A stretch of 64,000 nucleotides of DNA from Watersipora subatra (taxonomy: Eukaryota > Bryozoa > Gymnolaemata > Cheilostomatida > Watersiporidae): positions 33,861,155-33,925,154 of the forward strand of contig NC_088712.1 of NCBI RefSeq assembly GCF_963576615.1, given 5' to 3'. Within the stretch, counting starts at the first letter, position 1, and each line of letters begins with the position of its first letter. The notes under the pieces are model-generated. The model was not told the origin of the DNA, did not search any database, and worked only from the letters and a program-made list of their open reading frames with translations. Shown in pieces: positions 6,951 to 55,000 of this stretch. A program made the position numbers and the translations under genes.

Positions 6951-7449
6951 TACAGCGCATCCTCAGGATACAATTACTCTGATATACGATTTTTTCACCT
7001 TACGAAGTTGAACATGGTGAGATTTTCACCTAACCGTGTGAATTTTATTTCACTATACGACATCAAGAAAATTTTCGCCCGAGTTCAAATTTGGCAGTCG
7101 ATATGATTATTACGTACGTCGAAATAACAAAGACACTGAAATGCGGTTCGCCGAAAACATTTTCATAACGTTTAGAAGAGACATGATTGATATGCGACTT
7201 CTCTCAGCATTCCACGTGGGAAATTTTGTGAAAAGTGCGTAAGTATGAGCAAATATTTATTTTTAGCATTATACTTCATTTTACTATAAACTTCTATTTG
7301 CATACGTAAATATACAAGTATCTATATTTAATTCGTTACCTATGGAATCTGAGACCGATACAAACGTTACAAGATAAAGGAAAAATGATTTCTATGACAA
7401 CAAAGTTGAAGGCCATAAATAAATAGGAAGAGTACGCTCGTATTGTTAA

Positions 7450-8331
7450 AGGTTGACTTGCAAAAAATTCACATTACCGTTTATTTGGTATCAAAAGATT
7501 CACCATGTTTTACTCTGTTGTGTTGTAGGTGCCAAATATGTGGAAATGTGGTTACAAGCTCTTAAAAGCTCAAAAACGAAAAGCCGCTGTAGATTGGAAT
7601 CTCTTTATTTCTCTGACGTAGTCATGATAGTTTGGTTATTGTCTTGTCACGTGATGTTTTCACATGGTAAAGGCCAATAAAAAGCTCAATATAAACTTAT
7701 CATAGCACTAGTTTGTGACAAACACTTTGGGTTTTACCGAAGACCCCGTATCAAATATAGATGCTCGCTACTTTACAGTTTTGTTTCGGCTTGAACTAAT
7801 CGTCAAATCTTAATTTGATCATGTGACCCAATACTTCGAAAATAATTTTTGCAGCACTTTTTGATTATCACAGATGACCAACAGGCTCGCCATGATTGTC
7901 AGACAATGATATGCATGCATTCCTTCGAGCTAAGGTTAAAAAGTTTAACGAATTTTTACTGTAAATTATGAGATATCACTGCTAAAAGTGACAGCATTAC
8001 AACTACGATAAAACAGATGCGTAAGAACAATAGACATGGTTTTATTGAATGCGTGAAGTATATTTGTGAAAATATTTCGACGAATAAGGTTGCATGAAAG
8101 TGTAAACAAACCATTTACCACAACTACGTCACATTTGAGCCGTTTTGGAAAGAGAATCCAAACTACGGCGGTCTCGTGCGGCTGCGATTAACTGTTCGTT
8201 TTTGAGCTTTTAAGAGCTTGTGATCACATTCCCACATATTTTACACCTACATGTACAACACAACAGAGTAAGACATGGTGAATCTTTTGATATCAAATAA
8301 CTGTAATGTGAATTTTGTTGCAAGTCAACCT
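7450..8331. mobile_element. TTAA repeat, copy A (non-autonomous)
   Basis: An 882-bp element starts AGGTTGACTTGCAAAAAATT and ends in the reverse of it, GTTGCAAGTCAACCT, with TTAA on both sides. The inverted arms extend well beyond 100 bp, past the ACCATGT/ACATGGT and AACACAACAGAG blocks. TTAA duplications are typical of piggyBac-like elements, but no piggyBac transposase is present. The 75-residue frame at 7453-7680 lies in the arm and recurs in other copies, so it is not a gene. Confidence 0.85.
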
Positions 8332-8407
8332 TTAATATTGCCAAGAAATATGGTCGCAATCAATTAACAATTGCGATTATTGTTATTAAAAACAAGAAAT
8401 TTGTTAA

Positions 8408-16342: not shown

Positions 16343-18710
16343 CATCACAACTAATTCATGTAATAAATTTAACCAAAAATACTGATGTACAAAAATTAAC
16401 TTACATGTATGAAACTTAACTAATGCAGCAATTAACAATGAAAGGTTTCTGCTATCATCTTGTCTTGGTTGTAATGACAAGACATTCCCTCTCTGTGACC
16501 TCTGTTAGAGAGTATAATTGGTCGTATCAACTGATCCAAAGATGTCTGCTCTTGTTTTCCATTATTCTTTGCAATAATTCTAGGTAAAGCGTCAACTTTT
16601 CCCCATTTTTACCACTACTACCCTCGCACTGGTTGTCTACAGAAACTCAACTTTGAAGCAAGAAATAGATGGTATAACATATTGTTTAATATTATTAGAA
16701 TAAAACACAGCGAAGACAATCTGTGCATATAAGTTCCGATCAACAATACTAGACGATGTAGGTTGGAAGCTACTCGGGATGTTGGGCCAAATATGGGTAT
16801 ATTCAGGAATCGAAAGTCAAAGTTCGACTGTATAACTGCTAGATATAAATAGTAGGTTTGATGCGTTGACTAGTTTTAATACCATTTATTCAATAAATCA
16901 GGATATTTTTTTGTTATTGACTCAAGTAATCAGTATGAGTAAGGTAAGATACTCATACCTAGACAAATCATAAACTGAGCAGAAAATCGCTGAAACAATA
17001 TCTATGAGAACTATGCAATGTTACGACTGGAGAACATTTATCGTCAGAATAAGTTAAGTGTGAAGATGATTTAAAATGAGTATGTGAGAGCAGACTGGCT
17101 TCAAACTTGGCTTCAATTGAGAGGTTATTCCTGATAGGAACTAGCATCAACTGGTAGCTGCTACACCGAAGCTCCCAAATAGGTGTCATAAAGCAGTCAA
17201 CACTTTCGTTTATAATCCTGTAAATTTAAGTCTAATGTAGAACATTTGAAATGTATGAGTCATCAGTTGCAAAGCCTTTTGTTAAATGGTTCAACTGCCC
17301 TTTCATTTGTTCAATGCCACCAATGATATACAACCCTACAAAGATAGGCGCCGAGCATCATGTGGGCGGGGTTTAATGATCGAGCTCTGTTGGATGAACT
17401 CAAACACGGCACCCGGACAAAGAAATATGCTGAACAAAGCCCCTTGTAAAATTACAAATATTATGAACAATAGTGGCTATTTTACTGATCTGTTGGTTTC
17501 AGTTTGTTGTCAAATAAATAAAGTTGCCCAACCTTGTCACCGTTATGATCAGTCAGTTGCCATTCACAAGCATTCGTGATATTAATAGTCGCCATCAACG
17601 ACATCAACGAGTAGATATTCCTATTCCATTGTAAAATAGCCCTAATTTGGTTTTATATTTAGATTTTGAGTATGAAAACTACACTGCACAGCTTTGCTTG
17701 CTGTCTGATCTTAGTGGCCAGGTCAAACAATATGACAACGACTAAAGATTTTGTCCTATTATATTAGGGGGAGCAAAATATTAATGAAAAACTAGAGAAA
17801 AAAGGACGTTGTTCGGGTGATTTTGGGTAAATTATATCTAATTTTAAGCATATACTACGACCGCTAAAAATCTCAAAATTGATAAAAATAGGTAATTCCG
17901 AAATGTTTTATTTCCATGGATCGTACATATCGCTAATATTGAAGAGGGAAAGAGAGAATTACGTGTTTGCTGGTTACAGGTTTTGTTGTGTTGTACTACT
18001 AACCGGAAATCAGGTATAATCCGCAATCGACGCAAATAGGTGATAGAAATCTAGACCCAAAAACCTAAGACAACGCGACCGCCCTGCGAGAACTGTGTTA
18101 GCTCCAGAACCCAGGCTAGCACAATCATAACAGACCTCGATCCTTAAACCCCTGTCACATGATGCCAGTAACCTATCCTGTAGGGTCATATATCATTGAT
18201 GCCACCAAAAAAATGTTCAAAATTTGTTTATTACTAGTTTTACTGTACAAAATTAAAGTACAGCAGAGCCTCATGAAAAACTACATACAAAATAGAGGGT
18301 CATTTTATGCCATAGCGCTTTCCTAATGAAATAGCTAATGGGGTATATATAATCCATCAGATGGTGGAAAATTCTTACCGTTACTGCCAATGATTTTTTA
18401 CTTTTAAGATAAAAAAACTTTACTGCAATCAGCTCAAGCACAAACATCGAAAGAGTATGCTTCACCTTTGATTTCATTCAGAAATAAGATCGCATGATCA
18501 ACAGCATCGATCATACCTAGGAAAATGGGCTTGAATAGTTTCTATTACCTTTTTTCTATTACCACTTGGCTTTTGTTTGAACTGCGAGAAGCTCTACCCC
18601 ACTAACTTACCTGTAGTATGCAAATAATTTTATATGATTTGAATGCAAGAAACAAAAATTTGTCAAATTAAAACACTTGAGCCACTAATACAAAAAAGTG
18701 GGTTCTTAAA
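16343..18710. other. unassigned sequence
   Basis: The first ~100 bp continue the repeat interrupted by the hAT element. The rest has short frames only. A 97-residue plus frame at 17286-17579 has no motif I recognise. No splice-supported exon was found. Confidence 0.35.
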
Positions 18711-19017
18711 GGTTGACTTGCAACAAAATTCACATTACAGTTATTTGGTATCAAAAGGTTCGCCATGTCTAAAGGTATAAACACACTAGGCGATATTTAG
18801 AGCGATATCGCGCTGCGTGGCGCTAATCTGCGCTGGAATTCACTCAGCGTGCTCATGCAGAGCGATAACGCTAGACTTTTGTCTACACAACTTTATCGCC
18901 CGTGAGGTGCATTTTGATTGGTTGTTTTCATTCCCCCATAATGCTTCGATTTTCGCGTACCATATTTCTTCCTTTGTTAACGACTGTCCGAGGTACGACT
19001 TTCTGAACACGCGCAAA

Positions 19018-20090
19018 ATGAACATTGAACTTTTCATCGAGTTAATAAGAGAAAATCCTGTATTATATGATACAAAACACAAAAGCTACAAAGATTCACA
19101 CATGAAAAATAATATTTGGGAAGTAATTGTGCTGAAAGTTGGTCATATTGAGAATGGTAAGTAATTATTGTTTATTATGTAAACGGCTCCGTTGTACTTA
19201 ACTATACTAAGTACATCGGCTACATGACATATGTGGGATGAATTTAATCAAATAGTTTAAAGTAGCTTTCTTAACGGGATGTAACTAATATTTATTTGTT
19301 TTAGTAACAAAAGCAAAGCAACAATGGAAGTCGCTGCGTGATCAGTTTAGAAAATGCGTACTTGAAAAGAATAGAGCACAGCGGTCTGGCGCAGCTGCTT
19401 GCCCAGATCCAAAATGGAAATGGTTTCCATTTCTGAAATGGCTTAAAGACCATGTTGATCGACCAAGGTTAGTTAATGGACACACGTTTGCAGTTAGTAT
19501 AGACTAGAATCATAGACTTATAATCTGATTGCCAATATAAATGAACTAGTTGGATATCTGAACCATTACCTAAAATGAGTGAAGGAAATTTTGATCTACA
19601 GCAGCTGTTGTCAGCCTCGCGTGCATGCTCAGTAATTGTAATAAATTATTATGTGCTTGCAAATAGATGCACATGCATAAATTAACACCAAAAAAATTAA
19701 TAAAATAAGCTTTGTCGTTTTAGCACTACGAGCACTATCAGTACATTAGAGGAAGTGGCTGCTGTGAGCATAGATGAGGAAGAATGCCCGTCTACAAACA
19801 TCTCCTTACTTGCATCAGCCTCCCAAACATCCCAAGCTCCCTCATCGTCCAAGAGTAAGAAGAGGAAGTGTGCCGAAGTTGACTTTGGCCAGGAATTGCT
19901 TAAACGTTTTGATTCAATGGATCAAGAGGATAGACTTGACAGTTTTGGAGCAGAGGTGGCCAGAGACATTCGCTCCATTAAAGGAGAACTAGAACAGGAG
20001 CTAGTTATAAGAGAGATAAGGGACATAATATTCAGGGCTAAGTTTACCAGAAGTGCACATGCTGCCCACACTGAGGAGTTGAACGGATAG
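19018..20090 (+). CDS. Harbinger accessory MADF-domain protein
   Basis: Three exons, 19018-19156, 19305-19467 and 19724-20090, join in frame to 222 aa, with GTAAGT and GTTAGT donors. Residues 3 to about 98 form a MADF domain: IELFIELIRENPVLYD, then NIWEVIVLKVG, QQWKSLRDQFRK and KWKWFPFLKWLKDHV. A Lys-rich segment SSSKSKKRKC follows, likely a nuclear signal. The C-terminus (SFGAEVARDIRSI to EIRDIIFRAKF) resembles the BESS interaction motif. In known Harbinger elements the Myb/MADF partner binds transposon DNA and brings the transposase into the nucleus, so I infer the same here. AATAAA at 20154 could serve for polyadenylation. A start upstream of 19018 is possible, but this ATG begins exactly at the domain. 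Confidence 0.88.
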
Positions 20091-20316
20091 CTTTATATTA
20101 TGATTTCATTTTTAATACACACTTAGTAAATATATATTGTTTGGTAATATAATAATAAATATATATTGCTTGATATTATAATAACAAATATAGTTTGCTT
20201 AATAATATAATAATATTTTGCTTAATTATATAATAATATTTTGCTTAATAATATAGTGTATTTGCTTTTAAAATTGTTGTGACATTAAAATTGTACACAA
20301 TAGACAACAACAGAGC
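20091..20316. repeat. AT-rich spacer between converging genes
   Basis: Imperfect 20-30-bp units around TTGCTTAATAATATAATAAT fill the gap between the two stop codons. The tract probably contains the 3' untranslated regions and polyadenylation signals of both genes. Confidence 0.6.
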
Positions 20317-22325
20317 TCATTGCGTTCTGCGTACATGGGCATCTTGCCATTCCACAGCCCCAAGTCCAGTGAAGTATGATTTAAAGTGGTTTCTGATGTC
20401 GGCGGCATCTAGACTGTAGCTGCGGTTTGTTTGTCTGCGGTTATGAGCAGGTGTCTCGCGTCGCCAGATACCTTCCACGATTTCTCCTCCAGGTGCTATG
20501 GAGTCGGCAAACCCTGGTGGGCTGTATGGGTTTATGTTTTGTTCTCTCATAACATTGTGGAGAACACAAGTTGCTAAGATAACTCTCTTGGCATTATCTG
20601 GTGACATGACAAGAGTATTGTCCCTCAAACATCTCCATCTAAAAAATTTCAAGTGAAGCAAATTGTAAACAGCGCATAATGAAAATGTCACATAGTGCCT
20701 AATATAATAATATTTTTGCACATGGTGTTTCAAGCAGTAAAGTAGATTGCAGATTTGTGTATTGAGAACACTAACCTAGAGGTCATTATGCCAAAAGCAT
20801 TTTCAATGGTCCTCCGTGCCCTGCTTAGCCGATAGTTGAAAATCTTCTTGCCATGGCTGTCTACCACTCTCCCTGGGAATGGCCGCATTAACCATGGCTT
20901 AAGAGGGAACGCCTCATCTCCTACCATCACAAATGGTAATGGCTGAGAAGTTCCTGAAATAAATACAAAATCATCAAATGACTCCTATTGTACATATCAC
21001 TCTGGGAAATTCAGGATGCCGATGAATATTAAGTGATATTTCAGCACTTTGTGAAAATATTTAAAGGCAAGAAATTTGTGATTTGACAAATTTTTTAATT
21101 ACCTGGCAAGTTTGTTGGGGACGGTATATTGAGCTGGCCAGACTCCATTGCAGCGTTTAATGAAGACTGGCCAAAGGTTCCCCCATCAGAAAATCGTCCG
21201 GGAGTGCCAACATCAACATACGTAAATCTGTACTTGGCATCGCACATTGCCATAAGTACAACACTAAAATAATTAAAAAGATATTTGCCCTGTGACAAGT
21301 AATGTGCTAGTTTACAAGCAGATTGCCAAGACCCAACACTTGGTTTCAAATGGCAACATGGTTATATTTTGTAACATATTTCACAGGTTGGCTCATCACT
21401 AATAAAAAAATTGCTACTCTAAACAAGAAATGTGTGGAGAGAAGGTGAAGAGGAGGCGAAATAAGAAAAAACCATGCTAGAAATGCTTTACAAACATTTT
21501 GTTACCTAAAAGTCCTCTTGTAGTTGAAATACATTGAGCCGCTGTTACGTGGTGCCTGGATTTGACAATGTTTCCCGTCTACACTTCCCAAGCAATTGGG
21601 AAAATTCCATGTTTGCTCATATCTGTAATACAAATAGAATCAATTGTTGAGACATTATGTTACATGATGCATAAATTGATGTGAACAGCTAAAGTATTTG
21701 AGATAAAAATCAGTGTTTTCTCATACATGATAATTTAGCAGGTACAAAATAGCACTTTACTAAACAACGTTTTTTATTTAACTGAGAAAAAATGAACAAT
21801 TATTTATAAGATCTATATTAATTACCCTTTGGCGATATCGAGCCAGGCATCCTCGGTAGATGGAGTTACCAGATAAGTATGACGCAAACGATTCCAAATA
21901 GAATCACAAGTGGTATAAATGATTTCTCTCGCTGTGGACAGCCCTACTCTAAAAAACATGGCTATCAATTTGATGCTGTCCCCGGTGGCTAAGTAGAGTA
22001 GAGTGAGTGTGAGTCGCAGTTCTGCTGATATAGCTTTTCTCAACTGGGTGTCCGATTTAACAATGTCTTCTTTAATAAATTCTAATATGTGGTTGAAGCA
22101 TTGGGGTGTGACACGGACAGCTTCTCGGTAAAGGTGCTGGTGGGAGTTGTTGCGTTGGTAAACTTCAAAAACACTGTTATAACCACCTTGCAACGCTCTA
22201 TTAAGGTTAGGCATTTGAATCCAAAAACGTTTGTTCTTGTTTCTTTTGGTAATTCGCAATTTATGAATGTGAGATAGTCCTAGTAGCATCAAAAGTCGTT
22301 GACGACGTTGTTTTGTAAGCGCCAT
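20317..22325 (-). CDS. PIF/Harbinger DDE transposase (HARBI1-like)
   Basis: Five exons, 22325-21826, 21622-21506, 21263-21103, 20953-20776 and 20638-20317, total 1278 nt and encode 425 aa without a stop. All introns are GT-AG and the phases match. The N-terminal ~165 residues contain a helix-rich region ([16 protein letters not shown] to [11 protein letters not shown]) typical of HARBI1 proteins. The DDE_Tnp_4-type catalytic core shows Asp182 in GSVDGKH, Asp272 in VGDEAFPL and Glu310 in [11 protein letters not shown]. The conserved [19 protein letters not shown] sits between the first two. It should cut and paste the 22-bp ends. Length is in the usual range of about 350-450 aa. Nothing looks broken, so activity is possible. 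Confidence 0.93.
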
Positions 22326-23029
22326 ATTTACTTGTAACTATTGAGAACTCCGGAGTAACTGGTTATACAGAATTCTATTGGCTATTTGCGAGCACGCTCT
22401 ATTTACTTATCGCTGGTGAATCGCTCCAGTGTGTTTATGCACACGCTAGCGATATTTCCGCCCTCTTCATGACGCTCGCGATAAAATCGCCTAGTGTGTT
22501 TATACCTTTAGTCTGCTGTGTTGTAGGTGCAAAATATGTGGGAATGTGATTACAAGCTCTTAAAAGCTCAAATATGAAAAGCCGCCGTAGATGGGAATCT
22601 GTTTATTTCTCTGACGCAGTCATGACAGTTTGGTTAATGTCTTGTCACGTGATGTTCTCACGTGAATTGAAAGGCCAATAAAAAACTCAACATAAAACTT
22701 ATCGTAGCACTAGTTTATTACAAACACTTCGGATTTTATTGAAGACCCCGTATCAAATATAGATGCTCGCTACTTTACAGTTTTGTTTCGGCTTGATCTA
22801 ATCGTCAAGTCGTAATCTGATCATGTGACCCAATACTTCGCAAATAGTTTTTGCAGTACTTTTCTATTATCACAGGTGACCAACAGGCTCGTCTTGATTA
22901 TCAAAAAATGATATGTACTCCTTCGAGGTAAGGTTGAAAAATTAAATGAATTTTTACGGTAAGTTATAAGATATCATTGCTAAAAGTGACAGCATTACAA
23001 CGACGATAAAAGAGACGCGTACGAACAAT

Positions 23030-24412: not shown

Positions 24413-24718
24413 AACAATAGACATGGTTTTATTGAATGCATGAAGTATATTTGTGAAAATATTTCGACGAATAAGGTTGCATGAAAGTGTAAACAGAAAC
24501 CATCTCCTACAACTACATCACATTTGAGCCGTTTTGGAAAGAGAATTCAAACTACGGCGATCTCGAGTGGCTGCGATTAACTGTTCGTTTTTTAGCTTTT
24601 AAGAGCTTGTAATCACATTTCCACATATTTTGCACCTACAACACAACAGAGTAAGACATGGTGAATCTTTTGATGCCAAATAACTGTAATGTGAATTTTG
24701 TTGCAAGTCAACCTCTAA

Positions 24719-25064
24719 CATTCTGATGTGCAATGCAATAAACAGGCAATTTACATGAACGAATCAAATCAAATAATTTATCAAAAAAGTAATTAAAACC
24801 AATTTACATCGAAAAAAGATGGATTTAAAAAGTCATGATTTTTCCAACCCTACTGTGTTATTAATGTTGTACTAAATAGAACTCTTGCCTCCTGTTCTGT
24901 TGTCCATTCAACATGTTCTCGAGCCAAACAGATCCTCATCTTGCACAGTGCTTTTGCCAGCAACGGTTTTCTGCGAGTTTTTCAAACACAAACTAGTGAA
25001 GTGAACATTACTAGACAAGGATAGGCGACTCCCAACTCAAAGCGAGTCCATGCAGACTCAATGA
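24719..25064. other. unassigned sequence
   Basis: No gene or repeat end is recognised. The last ~50 bp grade into the adjacent minisatellite. Confidence 0.35.
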
Positions 25065-26853: not shown

Positions 26854-28377
26854 CTAAACACTTGCACACTCGACATCCCCTCGAAGATCCCTAGTTGTTT
26901 TTGGCCAAAAGGAGTGAAAATATTCCCCTAATTTTATAGATGGCATGTACAATTTCCTATTTTGTCTTGTATCGTGCGGGTTATTGGGAAGAGTAAAAGT
27001 GTTCTGAATAACAACAGAACTCAACACTTTGCAATATAGTTTTATTCGGGCATCTTTTCTAGGCTCTTGTAATGATTTTATGTTAGTGCTTTCCCTTAAT
27101 TGTGAAAAGCTTACTGGTGATCTTATGCGGTAAACAAATTTCAGACATTTATTTTGGATTTTCTCAATCTTCTTAATATCATTTTTTAAATAGGGGTCCC
27201 ACACCTGGCAAGCATATTCAAGGCCTGATCGTATCAGAGTCTTGTATGCCACTAATCTTGTCTTAGTGTCAGCTGTTTTAAGAACTCTTTGTAACATTCC
27301 TACTAGTCTGTTAGCTTTTGATGTAATTTTATCTATGTGTTTTTCCCATTTTAATTTACTACTCAGCTCAACTCCTAAATATGGATTAGAGTCAACATTT
27401 GTTAACTTTACATTATGTAAATAGTAGTCTTGCTGAGATTTCAGTTCACCGATGGAAAGAACTGAACACTTTGAAGGATTAAAAGAAAGTTGCCAGATGC
27501 GGAACCATTCCTCGCGAGTCATTAAATCTTCGTTTAAAACTGCACTCTCACTTCTCAAATTGTACACAAGGGCATCATCTGCAAACAGACGACATTCCGA
27601 TGTTATTTTGCCTGGCAAGTCATTTACATAAACAAGAAACAGAAATGAACCCAAAACCGATCCGTGAAAGACCCCAGAGAGAACATCGCAAAAATGTGAT
27701 TCAATACCCTCCACTGAAACAAATTGCTTCCTACTAATTAAAAAATTTCTAATCCATGATATAAATATAGGGCGAATGCTAAGGCTTTTTAACTTAAATA
27801 GCAATTTCCGATGATTTACTGAATCAAAGGCCTTTGAAAAGTCCAGTATCAAAACATCTGTGATATGTTTCTCTTTATTTAAAGCTAAATCATTGAAAGT
27901 ATGGATCAGTTGTGTCTCACATGATCTTTCTTTATGGAAAACATGCTGAGAGTCACACAATATTTTGTTTTTATCAAAAAATTGATGAATGTTGGAAGCT
28001 ATTATGTGTTCCAGTAACTTGCAAGTAATACAAGTCAATGAAACAGGCCTGTAATTATTTGGTTGCTTTCTATCGCCCTTTTTAAAAATTGGTTTCACCT
28101 TGGCAAGCTTCCATATATCCGGAAGAGAGCTCGAGGTCAGAGAGTACTTAAATATTTCAGTTAATGCGTGAACAATACAAGCAGAAGTCTTTAGAAGTAT
28201 GCCGTTTAGATTGTCTGGACCACATGATTTAGCAACTCTAATGTCATTGAGAACTTTCAGAACACCTTCCTTTTTTATTTCAAAAACAGAATCATCTACA
28301 TCATATTTCTCAAAGTCAGTTGGCAAAGGTGTATCGTCGTCAACAACAAACACTGACTGAAAAAAGCAATTAAGCAT
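26854..28377 (-). pseudogene. LINE reverse transcriptase, long open frame
   Basis: This frame of 507 residues carries the reverse transcriptase core: KVKPIFKKGD, NNYRPVSLT, LDFSKAFDSVNH, the catalytic LFADDALVY, and a C-terminal part with CQVWDPYLKNDIKKIEKIQ typical of Jockey/CR1-like proteins. The usual SQH-GF..G motif reads HVFHKERSC and the usual GVPQGSVLGP reads GVFHGSVLGS, changes that suggest loss of function. The true protein would be joined upstream to the endonuclease, but the frame shifts near 28450. In a live element it would copy RNA at the target site. Confidence 0.88.
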
Positions 28378-28421
28378 ATTAGCGTTTTCTGTTGATGACT
28401 TTGATTTAGATCCATTTAGAG

Positions 28422-29496
28422 TTATTTTGGGTATAATATCACAACCGTTGCTTTTTGCTTTTTCAAGGTGTCTGTAAAATGCCCTGACGGTAATGGTTTA
28501 AAAAGAGTTTTAGGTAGATATGTCTTTTTAGCTTGTAACACGAGCCTTTTGTTATATTTCCATGTGTTTTTGTACCTTGTAACATTATAGTTAGTTTCAT
28601 GAGTTTTCATTAAATGATAAAAAAGTTTCTGTTTTTTATTGCATTTGACAAGCATTTTGTAAACCATGGTGGCTGTTGTGTAGTTTTTCTTGTTCTAACT
28701 GGCACACATGTTTGTTTTAATGCCTGCATACCTGCACAAAATATATTGTAAATCTTATTAATGGACTCACCAGCTTTAATACAACTAAGTTTATTTGTCT
28801 CACACTCCGCAAAGACCTCGAAGCCTCCTACAAGATCAGCTTTGTTGTAGGAAAATACTTGAGTTTCCCTGAAAACCTCTTGATTTTGTTGTGTGAGATC
28901 AAGCCTAATATTTATCAAACTGTGGTCACTATATATAGGGGTAGAGACAATCACATCCTGAACAAAAGACTTGTTGGCAAACACTAGATCCAACATATTC
29001 CCTTTGTTATGGGTAGTTTGGAAGATGTGTTGTTCATAGGGGAATTCAGCTATTTTGGATAGAAAAGATTATTGATATTATAGTCTCCATCTACAACAAA
29101 ATCTACCCAATCAATATTTGGCATGTTAAAGTCACCACAAATCAACACAGTTTGATTTCTAACCACACTATCAACTCCAGAAAGAAGTGATGGAATAAGC
29201 ATTTAATCTTGATTGCTTGGTGGTCTGTATACTATGAGCAAAAATATAGAGAATGTGTTTGTCAAAGAGAATTTTATCAACAAGGATTCAGAAGACTGGA
29301 GTGGAATAATATATGAATGATAGTCATTACGAATATATGCAGCAACTCCTCCTCCATGTTGATTTCTATTATTGCTAAGCAACTGAAAAAATTTTATTTC
29401 TAGCTCTCCAGTATGAATATCTGATCCCAAATGGGTTTCAGTTAAGCAAATTGCAAATATATTTGGTGACAGTTGGAGCTCCCATTCTTCCCACAT
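28422..29496 (-). pseudogene. LINE endonuclease and linker remnants
   Basis: Three frames read in turn: 29496-29203 (FAICLTETHLGSDI to LLIVYRPPSNQD), a short stretch with VLICGDFNMPNIDWVDF near 29130, then 28996-28610 (MLDLVFANKS to IYSDHSLINIRLDL) and 28667-28422 (linker). The catalytic Glu of ETH, the Asp-Asn of GDFN and the SDH motif are retained, so the breaks are frame changes rather than active-site loss. Confidence 0.8.
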
Positions 29497-31284: not shown

Positions 31285-32229
31285 TAGGCTTACTTGGTAA
31301 TGCTTATGGTAAGCGACTAGGTTTTTCTATATATCTAATCACGCTAAACCAGTCACCTAGCTGTGGTGTGAGAGATTTCCTGATAACATTGTACGAATGA
31401 CATTTAAACAAGAAGTGGTAGAGAGATTCGTCCTCTGACAAGTATACACAAGTCGGGGAGTAAGTTAAACCGAGTTTATACATGTGAATTTGTAGCCTGC
31501 AGTGCCCTGTAAGAAGGGAACAAAGATTTCCAATTAAGGTTGGTGGTAGGTGCAGTGGGATTTTTGACTCCTGCAATAGTGTTGTTGGGTTGGTTAACAA
31601 AGGTATGAGACCATCTGAACTCTGTCTCAATCATCGAAATATCTGAGTTTGCATCTAGAGTTCTAAGGCCTAGGAGTTTAGCACATTCTGAATTTACCTG
31701 CTGGCTTAATCTACTTTTGGTATACAAGAACAGTTTGTCTTTGCTATTGTTTGAAGCAATTTGTTTCACAAGGCTCAGCCTAAGGTCTATGTATTGAATG
31801 GGTAGAGGTTTTATATTCGCAAAAACATGAAGTTCCTCCGTAGGTGGGTGGAATAGTACATGTATCATGTCTTTCAATATAGCGTACAATGAAATTCTGA
31901 ACTCGCTGTCCCATAAATGAGCGAGGTAGCACACTTTAGGGAGAATAACTGATAATAGTATGCGTCTGGATGTCTTTATGTTTAGATTTTTATTGATGAA
32001 AGGTTTAAGCATGGCCCATTTTCGCTTGAGTGTTTAAGTGGCAATGCCAAGTTGTATGTCAAAGCTTAGTTTGTTATTTAGAGTTAGTCCTAAGACTTTA
32101 GTGTTGCTAGTTCTATTTATTGTCTGGCCTAAAATCTTAGGTGTTAGACTAACTGTCTCCTTGAAAGACCACAAAATCACTCTTTGAGCAGTTAGCCTTC
32201 AGCCTCCATTTGGAAAGCCATCTGTCCAT
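31285..32229 (-). pseudogene. 3' part of a second LINE
   Basis: The minus strand encodes the region after the reverse transcriptase catalytic loop: DRWLSKWRLKANCSKSDFVV, TKVLGLTLNNKLSFDIQLG, KTSRRILLSVILPKVCYLAH, and a C-terminal LLTGHCRLQIHMYKLGL with ESLYHFLFKCHSY. These are typical of I/Jockey-group C-terminal regions. Frameshifts and a stop (after LGIAT near 32035) break it into frames 32012-31476 and 31630-31304. It is not the same family as the LINE at 26.7-29.5 kb. It abuts TTAA repeat copy C. Confidence 0.8.
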
Positions 32230-32644
32230 ATGTACTCCTTCGAGCTAAGGTTAAAAAGTTTAATGATTTTTTACGGTAAGTTATAAGATATCAGTGCTAA
32301 AAGTGACAGCATTACAATGACGATAAAACAGACGCATAAGAACAATAGACATGGTTTTATTGAATGCATGAAATATATTTATAAAAAATATTTCGACGAA
32401 TGAGGTTGCATGAAAGTGTAAACAGAAACCATCCTGTAACAACTACATCCTATTTGAGCCGTTTGGGAAAGCGAATCCAAACTACGGCGGTCTCGTGTGG
32501 CTGCGATTAACTGTTCGTTTTTTAACTTTCAAGAGCTTGTAATCACATTTCCACATATTTGGCAGCTACAACACAACAGAGTAAGACATGGTGAATCTTT
32601 CGATACCAAATAACTGTAATGTGAATTTTATTGCAAGTCAACCT
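32228..32644. mobile_element. TTAA repeat, copy C (right half)
   Basis: The segment runs from ATATGTACTCCTTCGAGC to GCAAGTCAACCT then TTAA and matches the right half of copies A and B. The left half is missing and is replaced by LINE sequence. Confidence 0.85.
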
Positions 32645-33059
32645 TTAAACAATAGCATGATGTTGAACCCCAGCAACTTCTCCATGGTAGCACTTAGTGC
32701 TAGCCTGGGAAAGTTTTTCACCAATCCAGCACTACTAAGCAACACTCTCGTCGCTTTCTCACTGTGGTTGCAAACCTCAATCACCACAGGCGAAAACAAA
32801 GTCAAGCCACCACGATTCTTAACTGTGATTAGGGAATTTGTTGCTTGGTTTACATCATAGTTGGTAACATCTACAATGCTAGTGATACAATCATTACATT
32901 TCAGCTTTGGTGACCTAGTAGCCAGCTGTAAAATAATCATTCTGTCTCATTTTTGACTTAAGACATACTTGCATACTCATCATATTTAGTCATGTTTAGT
33001 TCAGCATGATATTAGTCTATTTACCTAGCCAGGGTCTGGCTCTTTGAGTGGGTGGGCTA

Positions 33060-37078: not shown

Positions 37079-40000
37079 CTGTAAATAAAACAATAAAATT
37101 ACCATAATTTCAGCACACCAAACTTAAAGGTTGACTTGCAACAAAATTCACATTGCAGTTATTTGATATGAAAAGATTCACCATGTCTTACTCTGTTGTG
37201 TTGTAGGTGCCAAAAATGTGGAAATGTGATTACAAACTCTTAAAAGGTAAAAAAAACGAACAGTTAATCGCAGCCACACGTGACCGCCGTAGTTTGGATT
37301 CTCAAATGGGACGTAGTTGTGGTAGATGGTTTCTGTTTACACTTTCATGCAACCTTATTCGTCGAAATATTTTCACAAATATACTTCACGTAATCAATAA
37401 AACCATATCTATTGTTTTTACACGCCTATTTTTTTGTCATTGTAATGCTGTCACTTTAAGCAGTGATATCTTATAACTTACCGTAAAAATTTGTTTAATT
37501 TTTTTGTTAACCTTACCTCGAAGGAGTACATATCACTGTCTGATAATCAAGACGAGCCTGTTGGTCACCTGTGATAATCGAAAAGTGCTGCAGAAATTAT
37601 TTGTGAAGTATTGTGTCACATGATCAGATTATGACTTGACGATTTGATCAAGCCGAAACAAAACTGCAAAGTAGCGAGCATCTATATTTGATACGGGGTC
37701 TTCGGTAAAACCTGAAGTGTTGGTCATAAACTAGTGCTACGATAGGTTTTATATTGAGCTTTTTATTGGCCTTTCAATTCACGTGAGAACATCATGTGAC
37801 AAGACAATAACCAAACTGTCATGGCTACGTCAGAGAAATAAACGGATTCCAATCTACGGCGGCTTTTCGTTTTTGAGCTTTTAAGAGCTTGTAACCACAT
37901 TTCCACATATTTGGCACCTACAACACAACAGAGTAAGACATGATGAATCTTTTGATACCAAATAACTGTAATGTGAATTTTGTTGCAAGTCAACCTTTAA
38001 GTTAAACCGTATAGTTAAAAAAATCAGATTGGAAAAAACTACCACTTCATCTGATGCTGTATGTAAGACACAAACAACAACTACTACAACTAACTACAAA
38101 CACTAGAACAACTAAGGTGAGTTTAAAACTAATAATAGCATATTGGCCATCTAGACCGACCAGTTGTTTGTGCTTGAGCATTCGACTGACAAGCCTAGTA
38201 AATAAAACTTCCTAGTTTGATGTTTCAGAAAATCAAAAAATTATTTACGTTGGCAAATTTAATATAATAATTTGCAATATTTGAGCAAATGCACCAATGT
38301 AACTTCCAACAAACCTCACTGTCGGTTATACAAAAAGACAATGTTTTACTACTTAGATGAGACAAATGCAAAGACTTGCTGCACTAAGACAGATCGCTCA
38401 GCATTATCAATATTGGTGCCCGAAGTGTCAGTGATATACCCTGGTGTACCGAGTGTCCGTGATATACTCTGGTGTACCAAGTGTCAGTGATATACCCTGG
38501 TGTACCAAGTGTCAGTGATATACCCTGGTGTACCAAGTGTCAGTGATATACCCTGGTGTACCGAGTGTCAGTGATATACCCTGGTGTACCGAGTGTCAGT
38601 GATATACTCTGGTGTACCGAGTGTCAGTGACATACTCTGGTGTACCAAGTGTCAGTGATATTCTCTGGTGTACCGAGTGTCAGTGATATACTCTGGTGTA
38701 CCGAGTGTCAGTGATATACTCTGGTGTACCAAGTGTCAGTGATATACCCTGATGTACCGAGTGTCAGTGATATACTCTGGCGTACCAAGTGTCAGTGATA
38801 TACCCTGGTGTACCAAGTGTCAGTGATATACCCTGGTGTACCGAGTGTCAGTGATATACTCTGGTGTACCGAGTGTCAGTGACATACTCTGGTGTACCAA
38901 GTGTCAGTGATATTCTCTGGTGTACCGAGTGTCAGTGATATACTCTGGTGTACCGAGTGTCAGTGATATACTCTGGTGTACCAAGTGTCAGTGATATACC
39001 CTGATGTACCGAGTGTCAGTGATATACTCTGGCGTACCAAGTGTCAGTGATATACCCTGGTGTACCAAATGTCAGTGATATACTCTGGTGTACCGAGTGT
39101 CCGTGATATACTCTGGTGTACCAAGTGTCAGTGATATACCCTGGTGTACCAAGTGTCAGTGATATACCCTGGTGTACCGAGTGTCAGTGATATACCCTGG
39201 TGTACCGAGTGTCAGTGATATACCCTGGTGTACCGAGTGTCAGTGATATACCCTGGTGTACCGAGTGTCAGTGATATACTCTGGCGTACCGAGTGTCAGT
39301 GATATACCCTGGTGTACCGAGTGTCAGTGATATACCCTGGTGTATCTTTGCAGCTGCCAGTCTCATGACCTGTCTTGTCAATCAACAAGCTGCTGATGAT
39401 TGACAAGACATTGTCAATCATCAGCTTGATTGTAATTTTATACATAATTACAATATAATATATATAATAGAATATATATCATAATATATACATATATCAG
39501 ATGTTTTTTGGGACATACCGCGTCAAATATAACTTGAGCAATCTCATCTATTTTAGTACCAACGTCTCTCAGTTCTCCAGTGTACCGACAGTAGGCCCAA
39601 GTCAGGAGGAGCACCAGAGATATGAGTAGCAAAGCGTTGAGCAGTGAAACTATAGCCGACAACCCTACTACTGTGAAGAGACCTGTAAACAGCAAGCGAT
39701 GAAATTTAAACAACAGGCAATGCTAGTAGTCTAGGCAAATATTGCTATATGGGAACTAAAAGGCAGTATCAGATTTTCCCAAAGCAGTAATATAATAAAA
39801 TATACTGTGTCTCTTTAACCTACTATAGTCAAAACCACTACTTACAAACACCTCAACATACGAGTCGCTCAGCAATCAGACACAAGGCGCTGCAGCTTTG
39901 AACCACTACTTACAATCACCTCAACATACGAGTTGCTCAGCAATCAGACACAAGGCGCTGCAGCTTTGAACCACTACTTACAAACACCTCAACATACGAG

Positions 40001-43000
40001 TCGCTCAGCAATCAGGCACAAAGCGCTGCAGCTTTGAACCACTACTTACAAACACCTCAACATACGAGTTGCTCAGCAATCAGATACAAGGCGCTGCAGC
40101 TTTGAACCACTACTTACAAACACCTCAACATACGAGTCGCTCAGCAATCAGACACAAGGCGCTGCAGCTTTGAACCACTACTTACAATCACCTCAACATA
40201 CGAGTTGCTCAGCAATCAGACACAAGGCGCTGCAGCTTTGAACCACTACTTACAATCACCTCAACATATGAGTCGCTCAGCAATCAGACACAAGGCGCTG
40301 CAGCTTTGAACCACTACTTACAAACACCTCAACATACGAGTCGCTCAGCAATCAGACACAAGGCGCTGCAGCTTTGAACCACTACTTAGAAAAGTAACCA
40401 GTAAAATAACAATTCAAAAACTAAAAACTTTCTCTTTTTAAAGATTAAAATGTGAAATATTAATAATAGTAGATAAGGTAAGTTAATTTAAACTCTATAT
40501 AGTTCACAATAAAGTAAGTTAATCCGCTCTTCCCAGCAATAACCTCATTGACTTGTGTCAAAGATGACATAATAGCAAAATCCTCTTTTATCTATTATTA
40601 ATATATTTACTCAATTCTTTACATCGCTTTCTCTTTCTTCACCATTTTTGAGTACGAGAGTCAGTGGTCTCTTTGGGAACTGAACCCTGACCTGCTGGTC
40701 ACGGGTCAGCTACTCTAGACGAATAGGTCATCGCAGCTCTCATTGCATATATGTAATACAACAAACACGTGAGTATCCCCAGTATTGAGCCAGTTACACT
40801 GCACAGTTAAATATAATGCGGTGTAATTACCTCAAGTATTCACTACTATCATGCATTTTTCAGTATTTTCGATAGTTAAATTTTCAAATCAAGTAAAAAC
40901 TCAAAAACTGAATTGCCATTGTTTTTAAAGGTAGGTTAGTTTTAAAAATTGTTAGTTATAAATATACTTTTTTTGACGGGATTAAATGAAATTTGATTTG
41001 TGAGCAAAAGAAAAATGGAGAAAACCAGAAACGATTAAAATTTTTCCAGGCTATAGTAAAAATCAATAGCCATTAATCAGATGTATAGAATAGACAACTC
41101 CCACAATGCTATTGATTACACCGAACAGAAAATTACAAAACAACAAATATACTCTCACCTGACAGGGTATAAGTAGCGATAAAACAGATGAAGAAAGTAA
41201 TTGGAGTTCTGAATGTCCGAAGCATGCTTTTAGCTTCATTAGATTGCTGGTAGATCTCCCACGCCTGATTAATGTCCCGCTGCAACGTCTCCATATATGA
41301 TAAACTGCAATAGATTCTAACATATGACTCGCTACAACAACTAAATGATATGAATAGTAAACTAAACTATTAATTGAAATGTTGATGAAAATGGCCAAGA
41401 TGTTTATGCTATTGTATGACACATTGCGAGTGCATAGCTTAGTCATATTCATTTTAGCATACGCATAGGAATTTTTTTTTGCTGATGCACGAGACTTACA
41501 TGTATTATCTAGTAAAGATCTTCCATCAAATGATAATATTTATAAAATAATAAAATTTTTTATTTCCATTATACTTTTGAGTATCAAAAGTAAGTCTTTA
41601 AAACAATAAACATTTTATTTGAACAACCTGGACGTTCAACTAGCGACACGCTTCTCTAGGGATTATGACAAGGCTAGCAGGTGTTTGTAAGCCCTTTCAA
41701 TGAGGAGTTGTAGCAAGTGAGCCCTTTCTATGAGGAGTTGTAGCAAGTGAGCCCTTCCTATGAGGAGTTGAAGCAAGTTAACCTTTTCTCATTCAACGTT
41801 CATCATCAGGTTGACGAATTCAAATGAGGCACTCACCAATTGGCTGACTTTCAACCAATCAACACAAAAAACAATGAGCCCTATTAATAACGACATTATA
41901 ATTTTAACACATATACTTGGAGTAATTCTAACTCTCTCGCGGCTGAAATCACTGGTCAGTATCTCAAGACCATGAACTGGTTTGCCATCGTCGCTATTAA
42001 GTGGCAGCGTGTAGAAAAATAGAATAATAACTTTCCAACTTTTGATTATAACTATGATGTCTTGAAAGTCAGTAGAGACATTTGGTAATGTTTATACATT
42101 TCATTAGTCGATTTTAGAAGAAGTTTAGTGTGCTGTCACACTACTCTAACAGCAATTAGCCAATCAAATCAATCAACTTTTTATAAGGGCTTTACAAATA
42201 GGCAACTTTACAAACAGGCAACTTTACAAACAGGCAAGTTTACAGACAGGCAACTTTACAGACAGGCAACTTTACAGACAGGCAGTCAACATCAAACGTA
42301 GGAAGATGGCACACTGCCTGAAACAACCCTAAAACCTTCACCAATGAGTCTCACAAGTTTTCTACTATAAAATAAGATTCTTAAACAAAGTAACTTTTCA
42401 ACAGCCCTTTTTACCATTTTTCCTAGTTTCCTAGTAACTAGGAAACTAGTTTGCTTTCTTTGTCAATCTTTTTTCCACTATGAGGATAACATATACATAA
42501 TTATTATATATACAGCAGACGCTTCTACAATGTAATCCGTGTCAGGAACATTTCTGTTATAGGTATTTTACGTTACAACAATAAAATTCATGCCTTATAT
42601 ATATATATATTTGTTATATATATACACACAAAGTGAATGTCTACACATTTTATTGAGTAAACTTTTTGTTTTTTTATAAAATCTTGTTGACTATTTTTCT
42701 AAAAATCAACTACGGTTAACTAAAATCAATGATGGTCATCACAACTAAAATCTCAATGCAGCTATATTTAAAGAGTTGATAAATTGTTGGTAAAAAATTC
42801 TACTTGCTTTCAGGTAATTATTAAATTGAAAAAAAAAACTTTTCTGTTCAAGCCGTTTATATAAAATCCTGGAAAAGGTGGAATGGGTTTCCCAACCAGA
42901 CTGTTGGTATACTATTTGATAACAGTTAATTGGTAATTAATTTCATACGTTGTTCAAATATGTCAGAGAATCGCAACATGAGTTTTATGTAGTTTTAATC

Positions 43001-49000: not shown

Positions 49001-52000
49001 TCTGAAATGCAATATTAAAAGTAAAATATATTGTAATATACAGTTTGAAAGTTGGTTGTGTTGAATGCAGAACGGTTTTGACAACGATATGTAACAGAAA
49101 TAAATATTAATAAAATAAACATTTAATTATCTCAAACTTATGTTTTACAATAATAAAATAAATATTAATTCAAGCTGTAGACCTAACCTACTGTACGGAA
49201 TTTAACTAACAACAACAATAAAGAAATATAATTATTATATCTCTGAAATGCAATATTAAAAGTTAAACGGCAAGCTGATGTGTAATATACAGTTTGAAAG
49301 TTGGTTGTGTTGTGAATGTAGAATGGTTTTGACAGCGATATGTAACAGAAAGCAAGCGTTTGCATTTACGTGTCTGGAAGTTTTATGCAAACTGGAGTGA
49401 AATAAAGAAATATTCTTGTCATAAAAGGGCATTGTAGTAATGCCCTACCTTGTATATAAGATGTAAAGAAATCTGGCTGATGTTCTTGATAATTTGAAAA
49501 ACCTTCGGTAATTGGACAAAAACGTAGGCTGATAAACTGTGTACCACATTTTCGTACCTGTAAATCGGTCTACGCCTCAAACAGTCTCAAGCAGTACACA
49601 AACCTTCTTGGCAATCAAACAATGCCATAGACTGGTGAAATGAGCACATTTTTCTCGTGCTGAATTGCGTACTGCTAAATAGTTCTACTATCTGTCGCAC
49701 GGCTTTATTGGCATTTTGTAGGTCGGTCGAAACTATTAATAAACCAAGCTGTTCAAGTGTTTTGTTGCGATTTTTGGCAGGATGAATCTGTCTATTTATG
49801 TATAATCCGATCAGATGGGTTAGTTTTAGGAATTTGCAGTAACCTTTCAAAGGCTTGGTAACATATTTAAATAGGTTTATATACGTTTTGTATCCTTATT
49901 ATACTTAAACAACTTTACTGAAAAATAGTTAAATTTGTTGATAGAATTTCGTTACAAGGGTTTGGTTACGGCCGTTAACGGATAATTTTTCAGGAGCTGT
50001 GTGCACATGTGCATTTATCATAAATCTCCCAATCAATCGTTTCGCTCTTGTTTGGTCGTGGGACTATATATAAATCAAAAGCATAGATTGCTTGTTGCAA
50101 GTTAAGGGGCCTCTCATGTAATGTTTTAACAATTTTTATAAGTATAAATATTTTCCTATTACTTGAGATGGGTTTGTTTTAGGTGATGTGACTGCCAGGA
50201 CGTTTTCAGATTAAAATAGGCAAAACTTGATTGCGGTTGAAACGCTAAGAAAAAAATACATCTTTTTCTTTTGAGCGTTTTAACAAAAACCAAGTTTGCC
50301 GATTTTTCTCTAAGTTTATTCGAAGGTTACCTTGCTTTCGAAGGGATATCCCAAGCGGATGTTTGATAAAATTTGAGTTTTTGCAAACCTTTAGAAAAGT
50401 TGTTAACGAAAATATTTTGCCGATAGTGGTAATGACGCCTAAGAACTATTAAAACTTGATGTTTATCTCTATGGCTTGGAATAAAGTGATAATCTAAAGC
50501 GATAACAAACGTTTCGGTAGCTGTTGGGCAAAAAACTGTTCGAGGTAATGAAGTTAAGGTCGGGTTATCTATAGCAATTTATCATTGCGTTTATCATTGT
50601 ATCAAATCCGTTCGAGTTAACCGTGTGTTCGAGCTATCCGAGGGCGAGTTATCCGAGTTTCACTGTATTTCTTTCCTATGTTGGCGGCAACATTTGATTA
50701 TATGTAAATATATATAAATTTATATAAATAAGTATAAATATAAATAAATACATAAAACCATTAATTTAGTGTTGCATAATATTCTACTGTCTAAATAAAA
50801 TAAGTGTGGCTATGGTACACTAGCTAGATAAAATAAGTGTGGCTATGGTATGCTAGCTATAAATAAGCGTGGCTATGGTATACTACCTATAAATAAGTGG
50901 GGCTATGGTACACTAGCTAGATAAAATAAGTGTGGCTATGGTATACTATTTATAAATAAGTGGGGCTATGGTATGCTAGCTATAAATAAGTGTGGCTATG
51001 GTATGCTAGCTATAAATAAGTGTGGCTATGGTATGCTAGCTATAAATAAGTGAGGCTATGGTATGCTGGCTATAAATAAGTGTGGCTATGGTATGCTAGC
51101 TATAAATAAGTGGGGCTATGGTACACTAGCTAGATAAAATAAGTGTGGCTATGGTATGCTAGCTATAAGTGAGGCTTAGGTACACTAGCCAAAATAGCGC
51201 TATTATATGAATAAAAGCTGTCCATAGTTTTAACACCAATGCTCGATAGAGACTCTGAAATAATAAATAATCTAAAATATAGGATGCCGAGTGAACCTAT
51301 GAGATGCGCCTACCTTAAAATATTCAATGAGGTCTTGTCCAGTAACTGGATTACCACTTATCTCTTTCACAACCAAATGTCTCCGACTCAATAAATATGG
51401 CACCATATCCTTGAGTTGCTCTTTGAATTCACTCTCGATATCTATAACAACAGACATAAGATATCTATAACAACAGACATAAGATATCTACGCCCAACAA
51501 AAGACAAACCTGTAAAAATTAGGTTGGAAAGTCGATCAGCTAGTTGGCTCAACAGAGATCAACAGCACTCGCAGATTCCTATACAATAGGAAAAGGGTCT
51601 AGGAGGGGGAACTGGGAGGAAGTAGTTATATGAGAGAGGTATATGAGATAGGTATATGAGATAGGCGTATGAGGTAGGCGTATGAGGTAGGCGTATGAGG
51701 TAGGCGTATGAGGTAGGCGTATGAGGTAGGCGTATGAGGTAGGCGTATGAGGTAGGCGTATGAGGTAGGCGTATGAGGTAGGCGTATGAGGTAGGCGTAT
51801 GAGGTAGGCGTATGAGGTAGGCGTATGAGGTAGGCGTATGAGGTAGGCGTATGAGGTAGGCGTATGAGGTAGGCGTATGAGGTAGGCGTATGAGGTAGGC
51901 GTATGAGGCAGGCGTATGAGGCAGGCGTATGAGGCAGGCGTATGAGGCAGGCGTATGAGGCAGGCGTATGAGGCAGGCGTATGAGGCAGGCGTATGAGGC

Positions 52001-55000
52001 AGGCGTATGAGGCAGGCGTATGAGGCAGGCGTATGAGGTAGGCGTATGAGGTAGGCGTATGAGGTAGGCGTATGAGGTAGGCGTATGAGGTAGGCGTATG
52101 AGGTAGGCGTATGAGGTAGGCGTATGAGGTAGGCGTATGAGGTAGGCGTATGAGGTAGGCGTATGAGGTAGGCGTATGAGGTAGGCGTATGAGGTAGGCG
52201 TATGAGGTAGGCGTATGAGGTAGGCATAAGAGGTAGGTATATGAAGTAGGCATATCAGGTAGGCATATCAGGTAGGGCATATGAAATAGGTACATGACAT
52301 TTGGGATACTACTGACAAACCATGTAGCCTTTTAGAACCAAAAAGAAAGAACTAAAAAAAAGAGTATATCGGGGAAATCGTATCATGAGGGTGCACTGTA
52401 TATCAGGGAAATCGTATCCTGAGGGTGCACTGCATATCAGGGTAATCATATGCTGAGGGTGCACTGCATATCAAGGTAATCGTATTCTGAGGGTGCACTG
52501 TATATCAGGGTAATCGTATCCTGAGGGTGCACTGTATATCAGGGTAATCGTATCCTGAGGGTGCACTGTATATTATAACAATAGGAATCCAATTAAGCAT
52601 CAGATACTAACGAGCGTTGGTAAGGCTGTGAACCCCAGTAGTATAATAGGTAGATGAGACAATTCCATACCTGTTAACCTGCCATCAAATCTGGGGTTGG
52701 TGGCGACTTTCAGTCCTGGATGCGGCATCAAGAAACAGTCGATAGTCTCAAAGCACGACCTGATTTGCTGCCGGAGCAACTGGAGCTCAGCATGTTGTGA
52801 GGCACTTAGCTACATCAGGATAGAGATGCTGATTAGCGGTTTAAAAAACAAGAGAGGACAAGAGTTAATGAAGTTGACAGCAATAGCTAGCTGGAAGAAA
52901 GTCAGAAATATGTAGCACTTCAAGTCAAGTGAAATCAATTAATCGCATTCGCCCATAATGGGCGATATCTTTATTAAAGGTTGACTTGCAACAAAATTCA
53001 CATTACAGTTATTTGGTATCAAAAGATTCACCATGTTTTACTCTGTTGTGTTGTAGGTGCAAAATATGTGGAAATGTGATTACAAGCTCTTAAAAGCACA
53101 AAAACGAACGGTTAATCGCAGCCACATGAGAACGCCGTAGTTTGGATTCTCTTTCCATAACGGCTCAAATGTGACGTAGTTGTGGTAGATGGTTTCTGTT
53201 TACACCTTCATGCAACCTTATTCGTCGAAATATTTTCACAAATATACTTCACGCATTCAATAAAACCATGTCTATTGTTCTTACGCGTCTATTTTATCGT
53301 CATTGTAATGCTGTCACTTTTAGCACTGATATCTTATAACTTACCGTAAAAATTCGTTTAATTTTTTAACCTTACTTCGAAGGAGTACATATCATTGTCT
53401 GATAATCATGACGAGCCTGTTGGTCACCTGTGATAATCGAAAAGTGCTGCAAAAATTATTTGCGAAGTATTGGGTCACATGATCAGATTACGACTTGACG
53501 ATTGAATAATGCCGAAACAAAACTGTAAAGTAGCGAGCATCTATATTTGATACGGAGTCTTCGGAGAAACTCGAAGTGTTTGTCATAAACTAGTGCTACG
53601 ATAAGTTTTATATTGAGCTTTGTATTGGCCTTTTAATTCACGTGAGAACATTCGTGACAAGACGATAACCAAATTTCGTCGCTACGTCATCGAAATAAAG
53701 AGATTCTAATCTACGGCGGCTTTTCGTTTTTGAGCTTTCAAGAGCTTGTAATCCTATTTCCACATACAGTCAAACATGGATAACTCGGCCACGGATATTT
53801 CGAACACATCGTTAACTCGAACGGATTCTTTGGTCCGTTCCTACGCAATGATAAATTGCTTTAGATAACTGGAACTTAACATCATTAACTCGAACAGTTT
53901 TTTGCCGAAGGAACAAACTTAAAACAAACTTTGGTTTGTTTTAATCCAAAGGGATTTACATTAGTCGCGGAGCTACGACTACTCTGCCTTCCTAGCGAGT
54001 AAAGTGCTCCCTATAGGTATATAGTGTACATATATTTCCCCCGTACTCATAATGGAACCGATTATGAGACCGTATAAAACCTGATTAATGGGGTCGCTAA
54101 CACGTCAGCTAAGTTACGGCCAAACTAAACACGTTAAAAAGTAGTAGCGATAAAGGATATATATAAGCGATATATAAGGATAACACACCTTTTCACAGTA
54201 CACTCGATAGGTTTTTTAAATGAAACAACTACTGAGATGTAAAGCATGCGTTTTTGGATTGGTCATAAATGTTTACTCGTGTGAAGTTTTAAAAATTATC
54301 CCAAAATTTAGATATTTTCCTATCAGCTAAGATTTGTTTGTTGTCTGAGGTGATGTGACTGCCAAGATGTTTTAAGATTAAAATTGGCAAAATTGATTCC
54401 TGTTAAAACGCTCAGAAGAAAAAGATGGATTTTTTTCTGAGTGTTTCAACAACGATCAAGTTTTGCCAATTTTAATCTGAAAACCTCATGGCAGTACATC
54501 ACCTAAAACAACAAACAAATCTCAAGTAATAGAAAAACATCTTTACTTCCTGATAAATACTTTTGCAACTTTACACGAGGGCCCCTATAACTTGTAACAA
54601 GCAATCTATGATTTTGCTTTATACATAGTTTGTATATGTACATGTATCTTCTGTTAAATGCATGCACTTGTGACAGCGCTCTGATAACTTGAACGCTCTG
54701 ATAACTCAAACACTTTCGCTCGGTCCCGTGAGGTTTGAGTTATCCATGTTTGACTGTATTTGGCACTTACAACACAACAGAGTAAAACATGGTGAATCTT
54801 TTGATACCAAATAACTGTAATGTGAAATTTGTTGCAAGTCAACCTTTAAGTAACAAGAGTAGATTAAACAAATGTAAACACTATGGTAGCTGTAATAAAC
54901 ATATGTAAACACTATGGCAGCTGTAATAAACATATGTAAACACTATGGCAGCTGTAATAAACATATGTAAACACTATGGCAGCTGTAATAAACATATGTA

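Follow-up and report, generated by a model that had tools for sequence, protein, structure and literature searches.

Is the two-gene Harbinger transposon in a 64,000-nucleotide stretch of the Watersipora subatra genome (contig NC_088712.1, positions 33,861,155 to 33,925,154, here called the window) an intact and recently mobile element, and why do the two triplets that flank it, TAA at its left end and TTA at its right, differ? Judging from sequence comparisons, we consider it very probable that this is an intact autonomous PIF/Harbinger transposon, copied very recently, whose ends are common to many short (~600- to 820-bp) nonautonomous derivatives. The element is an ordinary member of the PIF/Harbinger superfamily and is real, young, and intact. 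The initial annotation had placed an intact two-gene Harbinger at 18773..22507, and these coordinates were exact. Both frames are open at the claimed lengths (425 and 222 codons), Asp182, Asp272, and Glu310 are present, and the 22-bp inverted ends, which begin AGG, are identical, the first difference falling at position 23. The end sequence, AGGTATAAACACACTAGGCGAT, starts the element at 18773 (+) and finishes it at 22507 (-). With ≤3 mismatches it was found at two places in the window, both of them the element ends, versus 0.00 on average over 100 shuffles.

To place this copy among its relatives, we searched the genome (784 Mb), scoring the best 40 of 1,088 candidates, so that copy counts are lower bounds. 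The family has at least 12 near-full-length copies including that of the window (copies are cited below by L numbers). L012 and L014 have flanks that are 96 to 98% alike and were therefore considered one duplicated insertion, leaving 11 distinct insertions. The youth claimed for the element, which was said to hang on a second copy above ~95% identity, was borne out by at least 10 other near-full-length copies at 95 to 100%, together with one split copy at 91%. The closest listed copy, on another chromosome (C8), differs from that of the window by 7 substitutions and one indel over 3,734 bp; 2 substitutions are private to the window copy and 4 to the C8 copy, and the window copy has the shortest end branch in the 12-copy tree. 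The other genome matches are partial and 69 to 90% identical, and the seven such loci checked for reading frames all have stops. Four of the 12 near-full-length copies (window, L010, L015, and L019) have both frames open. Ten of the 12 have an open MADF (Myb/SANT-like) frame (slightly shorter in L013 and L016), more than have an open transposase frame, for which the shorter length of the MADF frame may be the cause. Changes common to two or more copies show purifying selection on both frames (omega of 0.15 for MADF and 0.13 for the transposase), versus 0.48 and 0.65, respectively, for private changes, with stops scored as replacements and only copies of equal coding length included (9 of 12 for MADF, 8 of 12 for the transposase). 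This pattern is expected where the spread of a lineage depends on both proteins while single copies decay after insertion. Older relatives (~73 to 87%; L023, L024, L025, L029 to L032, L036, L037, and L040) appear clustered and in duplicated pieces, as if locally duplicated, on C9 at ~21.98 to 22.94 Mb and on C6 at ~10.3 and 11.85 Mb. In L027, pieces of a different Harbinger-like transposase (~29% identical) lie at 7525-8378 beside an old copy of the family studied here.

The 222-amino-acid protein matched MADF_DNA_bdg (PF10545; E value of 3.7e-18), while the transposase matched the full profile of DDE_Tnp_4 (PF13359; residues 181 to 347, E value of 1.3e-30). From this match and from what is known of the family, we take D182, D272, and E310 to be the catalytic residues. 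All predicted introns have GT-AG ends (2 of 2 in the MADF gene and 4 of 4 in the transposase gene), which are retained at all six in 10 of 12 copies. The partner had been described as a MADF/BESS protein of three exons converging on the transposase; the MADF domain, the three exons, and the convergence held, while the BESS part of the label, a motif C-terminal to MADF, was not supported, with no Pfam match in the whole protein (E values up to 1) or in its C-terminal 81 amino acids (E values up to 10). By comparison with the superfamily, the DDE_Tnp_4 transposase would cut and paste the element, whereas the MADF protein would bind GCGATA motifs in both ends and recruit the transposase. The clustering of these motifs points in the same direction. 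The two ends outside the genes, 427 bp in all, contain 8 GCGATA/TATCGC motifs versus one in the 3,308 bp between, and each of the 12 copies has 5 to 8 of them in its ends, the 5 belonging to L020, whose right end falls outside its stretch. By analogy with zebrafish Harbinger3_DR, we regard the subterminal motifs as candidate binding sites of the MADF protein. The element would insert at T-N-A sites, mostly TAA or TTA, and leave 3-bp duplications.

The 22-mer end had 1,021 matches genome-wide (≤3 mismatches), versus 4 for the control. From the first 100 of these we fetched 40 of ~75 short-element places, and both ends were recognizable in 39 of them (L048 was unpaired). L060 (TCA/AAG) was excluded as non-TNA, leaving 38 short copies of 640 to 793 bp. 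In one near-consensus short copy, the outermost 152 bp on the left and 189 bp on the right are retained around a middle unrelated to the element. Given the ends common to both, the transposase may mobilize these short derivatives in trans. Their sites have a palindromic extended target preference (C or G at -1 in 28 and at +1 in 25, T at -2 in 23, A at +2 in 22), as judged by descriptive counts that were made without a shuffled control and include L077 and L078, whose flanks are the same as those of L076.

Several observations weigh against an intact, recently copied autonomous element. The match of the transposase to HTH_Tnp_4 (PF13613) is weak (E value of 0.00094; 19.2 bits versus a cut-off of 27), the search for solved relatives of both proteins gave none that was convincing, and the transposase frame is broken in 8 of the 12 near-full-length copies. 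Some near-full-length sites are not TWA (ATA/ATA in L015 and one further site with TCA on a single side), and the unequal duplication of the window copy would be expected, by comparison with rice mPing, to give poor repair after excision, as unequal target-site duplications (TSDs) lowered excision-site repair of mPing in yeast (PMC4561436). The broken transposases and the mPing result would also fit a dead young copy, that is, a recent jump in a family that is now silent, with the window copy a poor donor through its unequal duplication. We find this unlikely, although it deserves to be taken seriously, since four copies are open in both frames, two of them with only 2 and 4 private substitutions, and two short derivatives are the same over 791 of 791 bases. 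The initial suggestion that the intact element is perhaps active stands for the recent past, in the form of recent copying, and the element may still be active today.

Near-identical copies with TWA-type duplications, anticipated as a sign of activity, are present in the genome. Among the 11 distinct near-full-length insertions, 7 have equal duplications (L010, L013, L015, L016, L017, L018, and L019, the last on the assumption that its left end begins with a mutated base), and L020, whose distant right part lies in L021, is an eighth equal case (TAA/TAA). The other three are unequal, namely the window copy (TAA/TTA), L011 (TCA/TTA), and L012/L014 (TAA/TTA), and they occupy three of the four shortest branches (a post hoc test). 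The window element entered one of several copies that the window contains of a ~890-bp repeat with inverted ends, pieces of which are 85 to 95% alike and lie in both orientations within the 64 kb. These copies provided paralogous empty sites. The entry site reads TTA in 10 of 10 paralogous repeat ends (some of which belong pairwise to a single repeat copy), so the left duplication TAA sits where TTA is expected. The base 3' of the right duplication is G at the window element and C in 10 of 10 paralogous ends.

Unequal duplications also occur among the short derivatives, in 13 of the 38 copies versus 25 with equal ones. The difference lies at the central base in all 13, 4 of them involving C or G, while none of the 76 outer positions differs (L060 excluded). 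Unequal short copies are not older than equal ones (median divergence of 0.0165 versus 0.0241, p=0.17), and L081 (TGA/TAA) is the same as L070 (TAA/TAA) over 791 of 791 bases with different flanks. For a wider tally, we ran pattern searches per end with the central base left free, which gave 184 left and 128 right ends, 100 of each listed. All 200 listed ends have T and A at the outer positions, weaker evidence than that of the 38 copies because the pattern admitted one letter per outer position only at the cost of a mismatch. Among the 100 left ends listed, 67 had A and 30 had T as the central base. When the ends were paired by their coordinates, 64 insertions resulted (44 equal, 20 unequal), of which 57 are short derivatives of 608 to 817 bp, 17 of them unequal. 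We combined the paired, the fetched, and four full-length insertions, minus a doubtful 4,833-bp pair and two flank-sharing copies, and left out L015 (ATA/ATA), L060, and the duplicate L014. Of the resulting 81 insertions, a nonrandom sample since it was drawn from the listed part of the well-kept ends, 33 were TAA/TAA, 25 TTA/TTA, 14 TAA/TTA, 3 TTA/TAA, and 6 had a C or G center on one side. Every duplication was TNA on both sides, and TWA on both in the 58 equal TAA or TTA cases and the 17 that combine the two. Unequal duplications made up 23 of 81 (28%, 95% interval of 19 to 40%), the difference always lying at the central base. The 22 insertions found by both routes agreed in their duplications. 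The ratio of TAA/TTA to TTA/TAA was 14:3, where symmetry is expected under random orientation.

We then looked for empty sites of the short insertions by searching with the joined flanks of each of the 13 unequal copies, scoring the best 40 of 2,860 candidates. At least 17 candidate empty sites were listed for L047 and at least 23 for L067; for the other 11 copies there was none among these best 40. The paralogous sites read TTA in 10 of 10 cases for each, so that in both L047 (TAA/TTA) and L067 (TTA/TAA) one side matches the target and the other has A. Their flanks are 98 to 99% identical to the paralogs read, and both insertions therefore look recent. L051 appears to lie inside an old Harbinger end, its site also spanning three bases (by eye). 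Among equal insertions, the paralogs of L079 (1 of 1), L076 (4 of 4), and L059 (8 of 8, with one additional base in the left flank) read TTA like the duplications themselves. The three paralogs of L045 (TAA once, TAT twice) all have A at the center, and the tandem neighbors of L052, L073, and L082 match their own duplications (by eye). Among more diverged paralogs, that of L079 at 94% has A at the center, and the seven of L046 (83 to 92%) read GTA in three cases and other triplets in four. None of the seven equal insertions judged had both duplications unlike the target center.

Since the window copy, L047, and L067 each mismatch 10 of 10 empty sites on a single side, the central-base change seems to be made at insertion. 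Of the possible explanations, we lean, by a little more than an even chance, toward one in which part of the duplication would derive from the donor. In the model proposed for rice mPing, excision cuts through the duplications and leaves 3-nucleotide 5' overhangs (PMC4561436). We infer from this cut that the excised element would retain its donor T-N-A as such overhangs, whose outer T and A could pair with those of any new T-N-A target; differing central bases would form a mispair, resolved independently at each end. Donor carry-over would thus restrict variation to the central base and give unequal insertions like the 23 of 81. A steady-state model with random resolution at each end predicts 36% unequal insertions versus the 28% observed, with a fitted donor share of 0.36, and by our estimate roughly one in ten equal cases should have both sides replaced. 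Nearest neighbors among 36 short copies (L048 being unpaired and L060, L077, and L078 dropped) shared the central base more often than permuted ones (0.583 versus 0.447, p=0.036), and pairs below five distance cut-offs gave p values from 0.015 to 0.15, whereas in the same copies neither side showed any correlation of central base with element distance (p=0.80 and 0.47). The evidence that related copies inherit the central base is therefore suggestive. The lack of correlation would rather suit untemplated or error-prone gap filling at one end, which would alter the central base at insertion without any donor bases. This is a possibility that we rate as tentative, and it also agrees with exactly one side being unlike the target in all 3 unequal insertions whose empty sites were read and with no equal insertion, among those judged, having both sides unlike the target center. 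However, fill-in errors should hit the outer two bases too, 17 of the 23 changes are between A and T, and nearest relatives share the central base more often than permuted ones.

The remaining explanations are much less probable. Old insertions with mutated duplications whose interiors were overwritten by young sequence through gene conversion or exchange would yield young interiors in old flanks, and copies numerous enough for this exist, but the central-only difference would stay unexplained and the flanks of L047 and L067 look recent; we consider this very unlikely. A 2-bp TA duplication, with or without one more base on either side, parses TAA/TTA, TTA/TTA, TAA/TAA, and TTA/TAA equally well, but is extremely unlikely given that the empty sites of the three unequal insertions are the three-base TTA (10 of 10 each) and that unequal cases with TGA or TCA offer no TA on that side. 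Ordinary substitution after insertion could affect any base, and 4 of the 13 unequal short cases do involve C or G. We nevertheless give it next to no chance, as all 23 unequal cases are central (with the caveat that the pattern searches behind many of them favored outer T/A), and the 38 short copies, which were unselected by duplication, have no outer difference in 76 positions. Moreover, unequal copies are not older, L081 is unequal despite its identity with L070, and the three unequal full-length copies are among the four shortest branches.

Coordinates of the element, its parts, and its host repeat in the window
Feature	Position	Strand	Evidence
Complete autonomous PIF/Harbinger element	18773..22507	.	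3,735 bp; ends, genes, 11 further near-full-length genome copies
Left terminal inverted repeat	18773..18794	+	22 bp, same as right end; 1,021 genome-wide matches
Right terminal inverted repeat	22486..22507	-	22 bp, same as left end; no third match in window
Left target-site duplication TAA	18770..18772	+	center unlike target TTA; 10/10 paralogous repeat ends are TTA
Right target-site duplication TTA	22508..22510	+	same as target
Left subterminal cluster	18790..18899	.	five GCGATA/TATCGC motifs, putative MADF-protein sites
Right subterminal cluster	22408..22483	.	three GCGATA/TATCGC motifs, putative MADF-protein sites
MADF (Myb/SANT-like) gene	19018..20090	+	exons 19018-19156, 19305-19467, 19724-20090; 222 amino acids and stop
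DDE transposase gene	20317..22325	-	five exons 22325-21826, 21622-21506, 21263-21103, 20953-20776, 20638-20317; 425 amino acids; D182/D272/E310
Host repeat, first piece	18703..18772	+	aligns to 7420-8360, 37100-38020, 52950-53830
Host repeat, second piece	22508..23029	+	self-alignment in window
Host repeat, third piece	24413..24722	+	after ~1.4 kb absent from other repeat copies
Other ~890-bp repeat locations	7443-8339, 32228-32648, 37113-38001, 52972-53766 and others		

Nearly every other element in the window had been described as decayed. Not all of them are fully so, since a 547-amino-acid frame at 26857-28497 (-) with a reverse transcriptase domain (PF00078; E value of 1.9e-30) is still open. 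The window also contains long tandem arrays at 38414-39344, 51629-52290, and 39833-40392, with self-match offsets in steps of ~28, 13, and 68 bp.

We compared the element with known systems. PIF/Harbinger elements (PHIS superfamily; Han et al. 2015, PMC4482050) have two open reading frames, TWA duplications, and short inverted ends starting with A or G, with a mean length of ~4.1 kb for autonomous copies. The window element resembles them in its DDE transposase and Myb/SANT frames, its TWA duplications, the first base of its ends, and its length, but its helix-turn-helix is weakly matched and unequal centers such as those of our 23 of 81 insertions are unmentioned in the part of that paper available to us. 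The NuwaII group described there has a C|TNA|G target and ends starting with GG. The window element shares the TNA target and the palindromic context, but membership was rejected, its ends starting with AGG rather than GG, and C as well as G being found at both -1 and +1 instead of a strict C...G. Insect PIF elements likewise have a MADF second gene, with both genes derived from one element (Markova et al. 2022, PMC9710019), although the pair is domesticated there and belongs to an intact mobile copy here. In zebrafish Harbinger3_DR, a 9-bp subterminal motif is recognized by the Myb-like protein, whose interaction with the transposase lets the two localize to the nucleus together (PMC9710019), whereas in our case the GCGATA motif is a predicted site and the partner is of the MADF type. 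The rice mPing/Ping/Pong system (PMC2836001, PMC4561436) shares the two proteins, the 3-bp TAA/TTA duplications, the extended target preference, and the short derivatives, and we also count as a likeness its proposed 3-nucleotide 5' overhang cut through the duplications. However, its unequal duplications were built in the laboratory (PMC4561436), while ours are natural insertions. In the literature searched, mostly without subscription papers, we met no report of natural unequal duplications of the central-base kind; in the text seen, the "TSD mismatch" of PMC8903248 is a search setting and the "imperfect TSD" of PMC5454002 refers to noncanonical copies of one miniature inverted-repeat transposable element.

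With four doubly open copies and near-identical short derivatives, this MADF-type Harbinger pair is a convenient candidate for studying the role of the second protein, and its unequal duplications would be a record of insertion chemistry. If donor carry-over is true, the landing-site duplication of the superfamily would not be a pure copy of the target, the logic by which empty sites are reconstructed would need correcting, and the 5'-overhang excision model of rice mPing would gain support from natural insertions.

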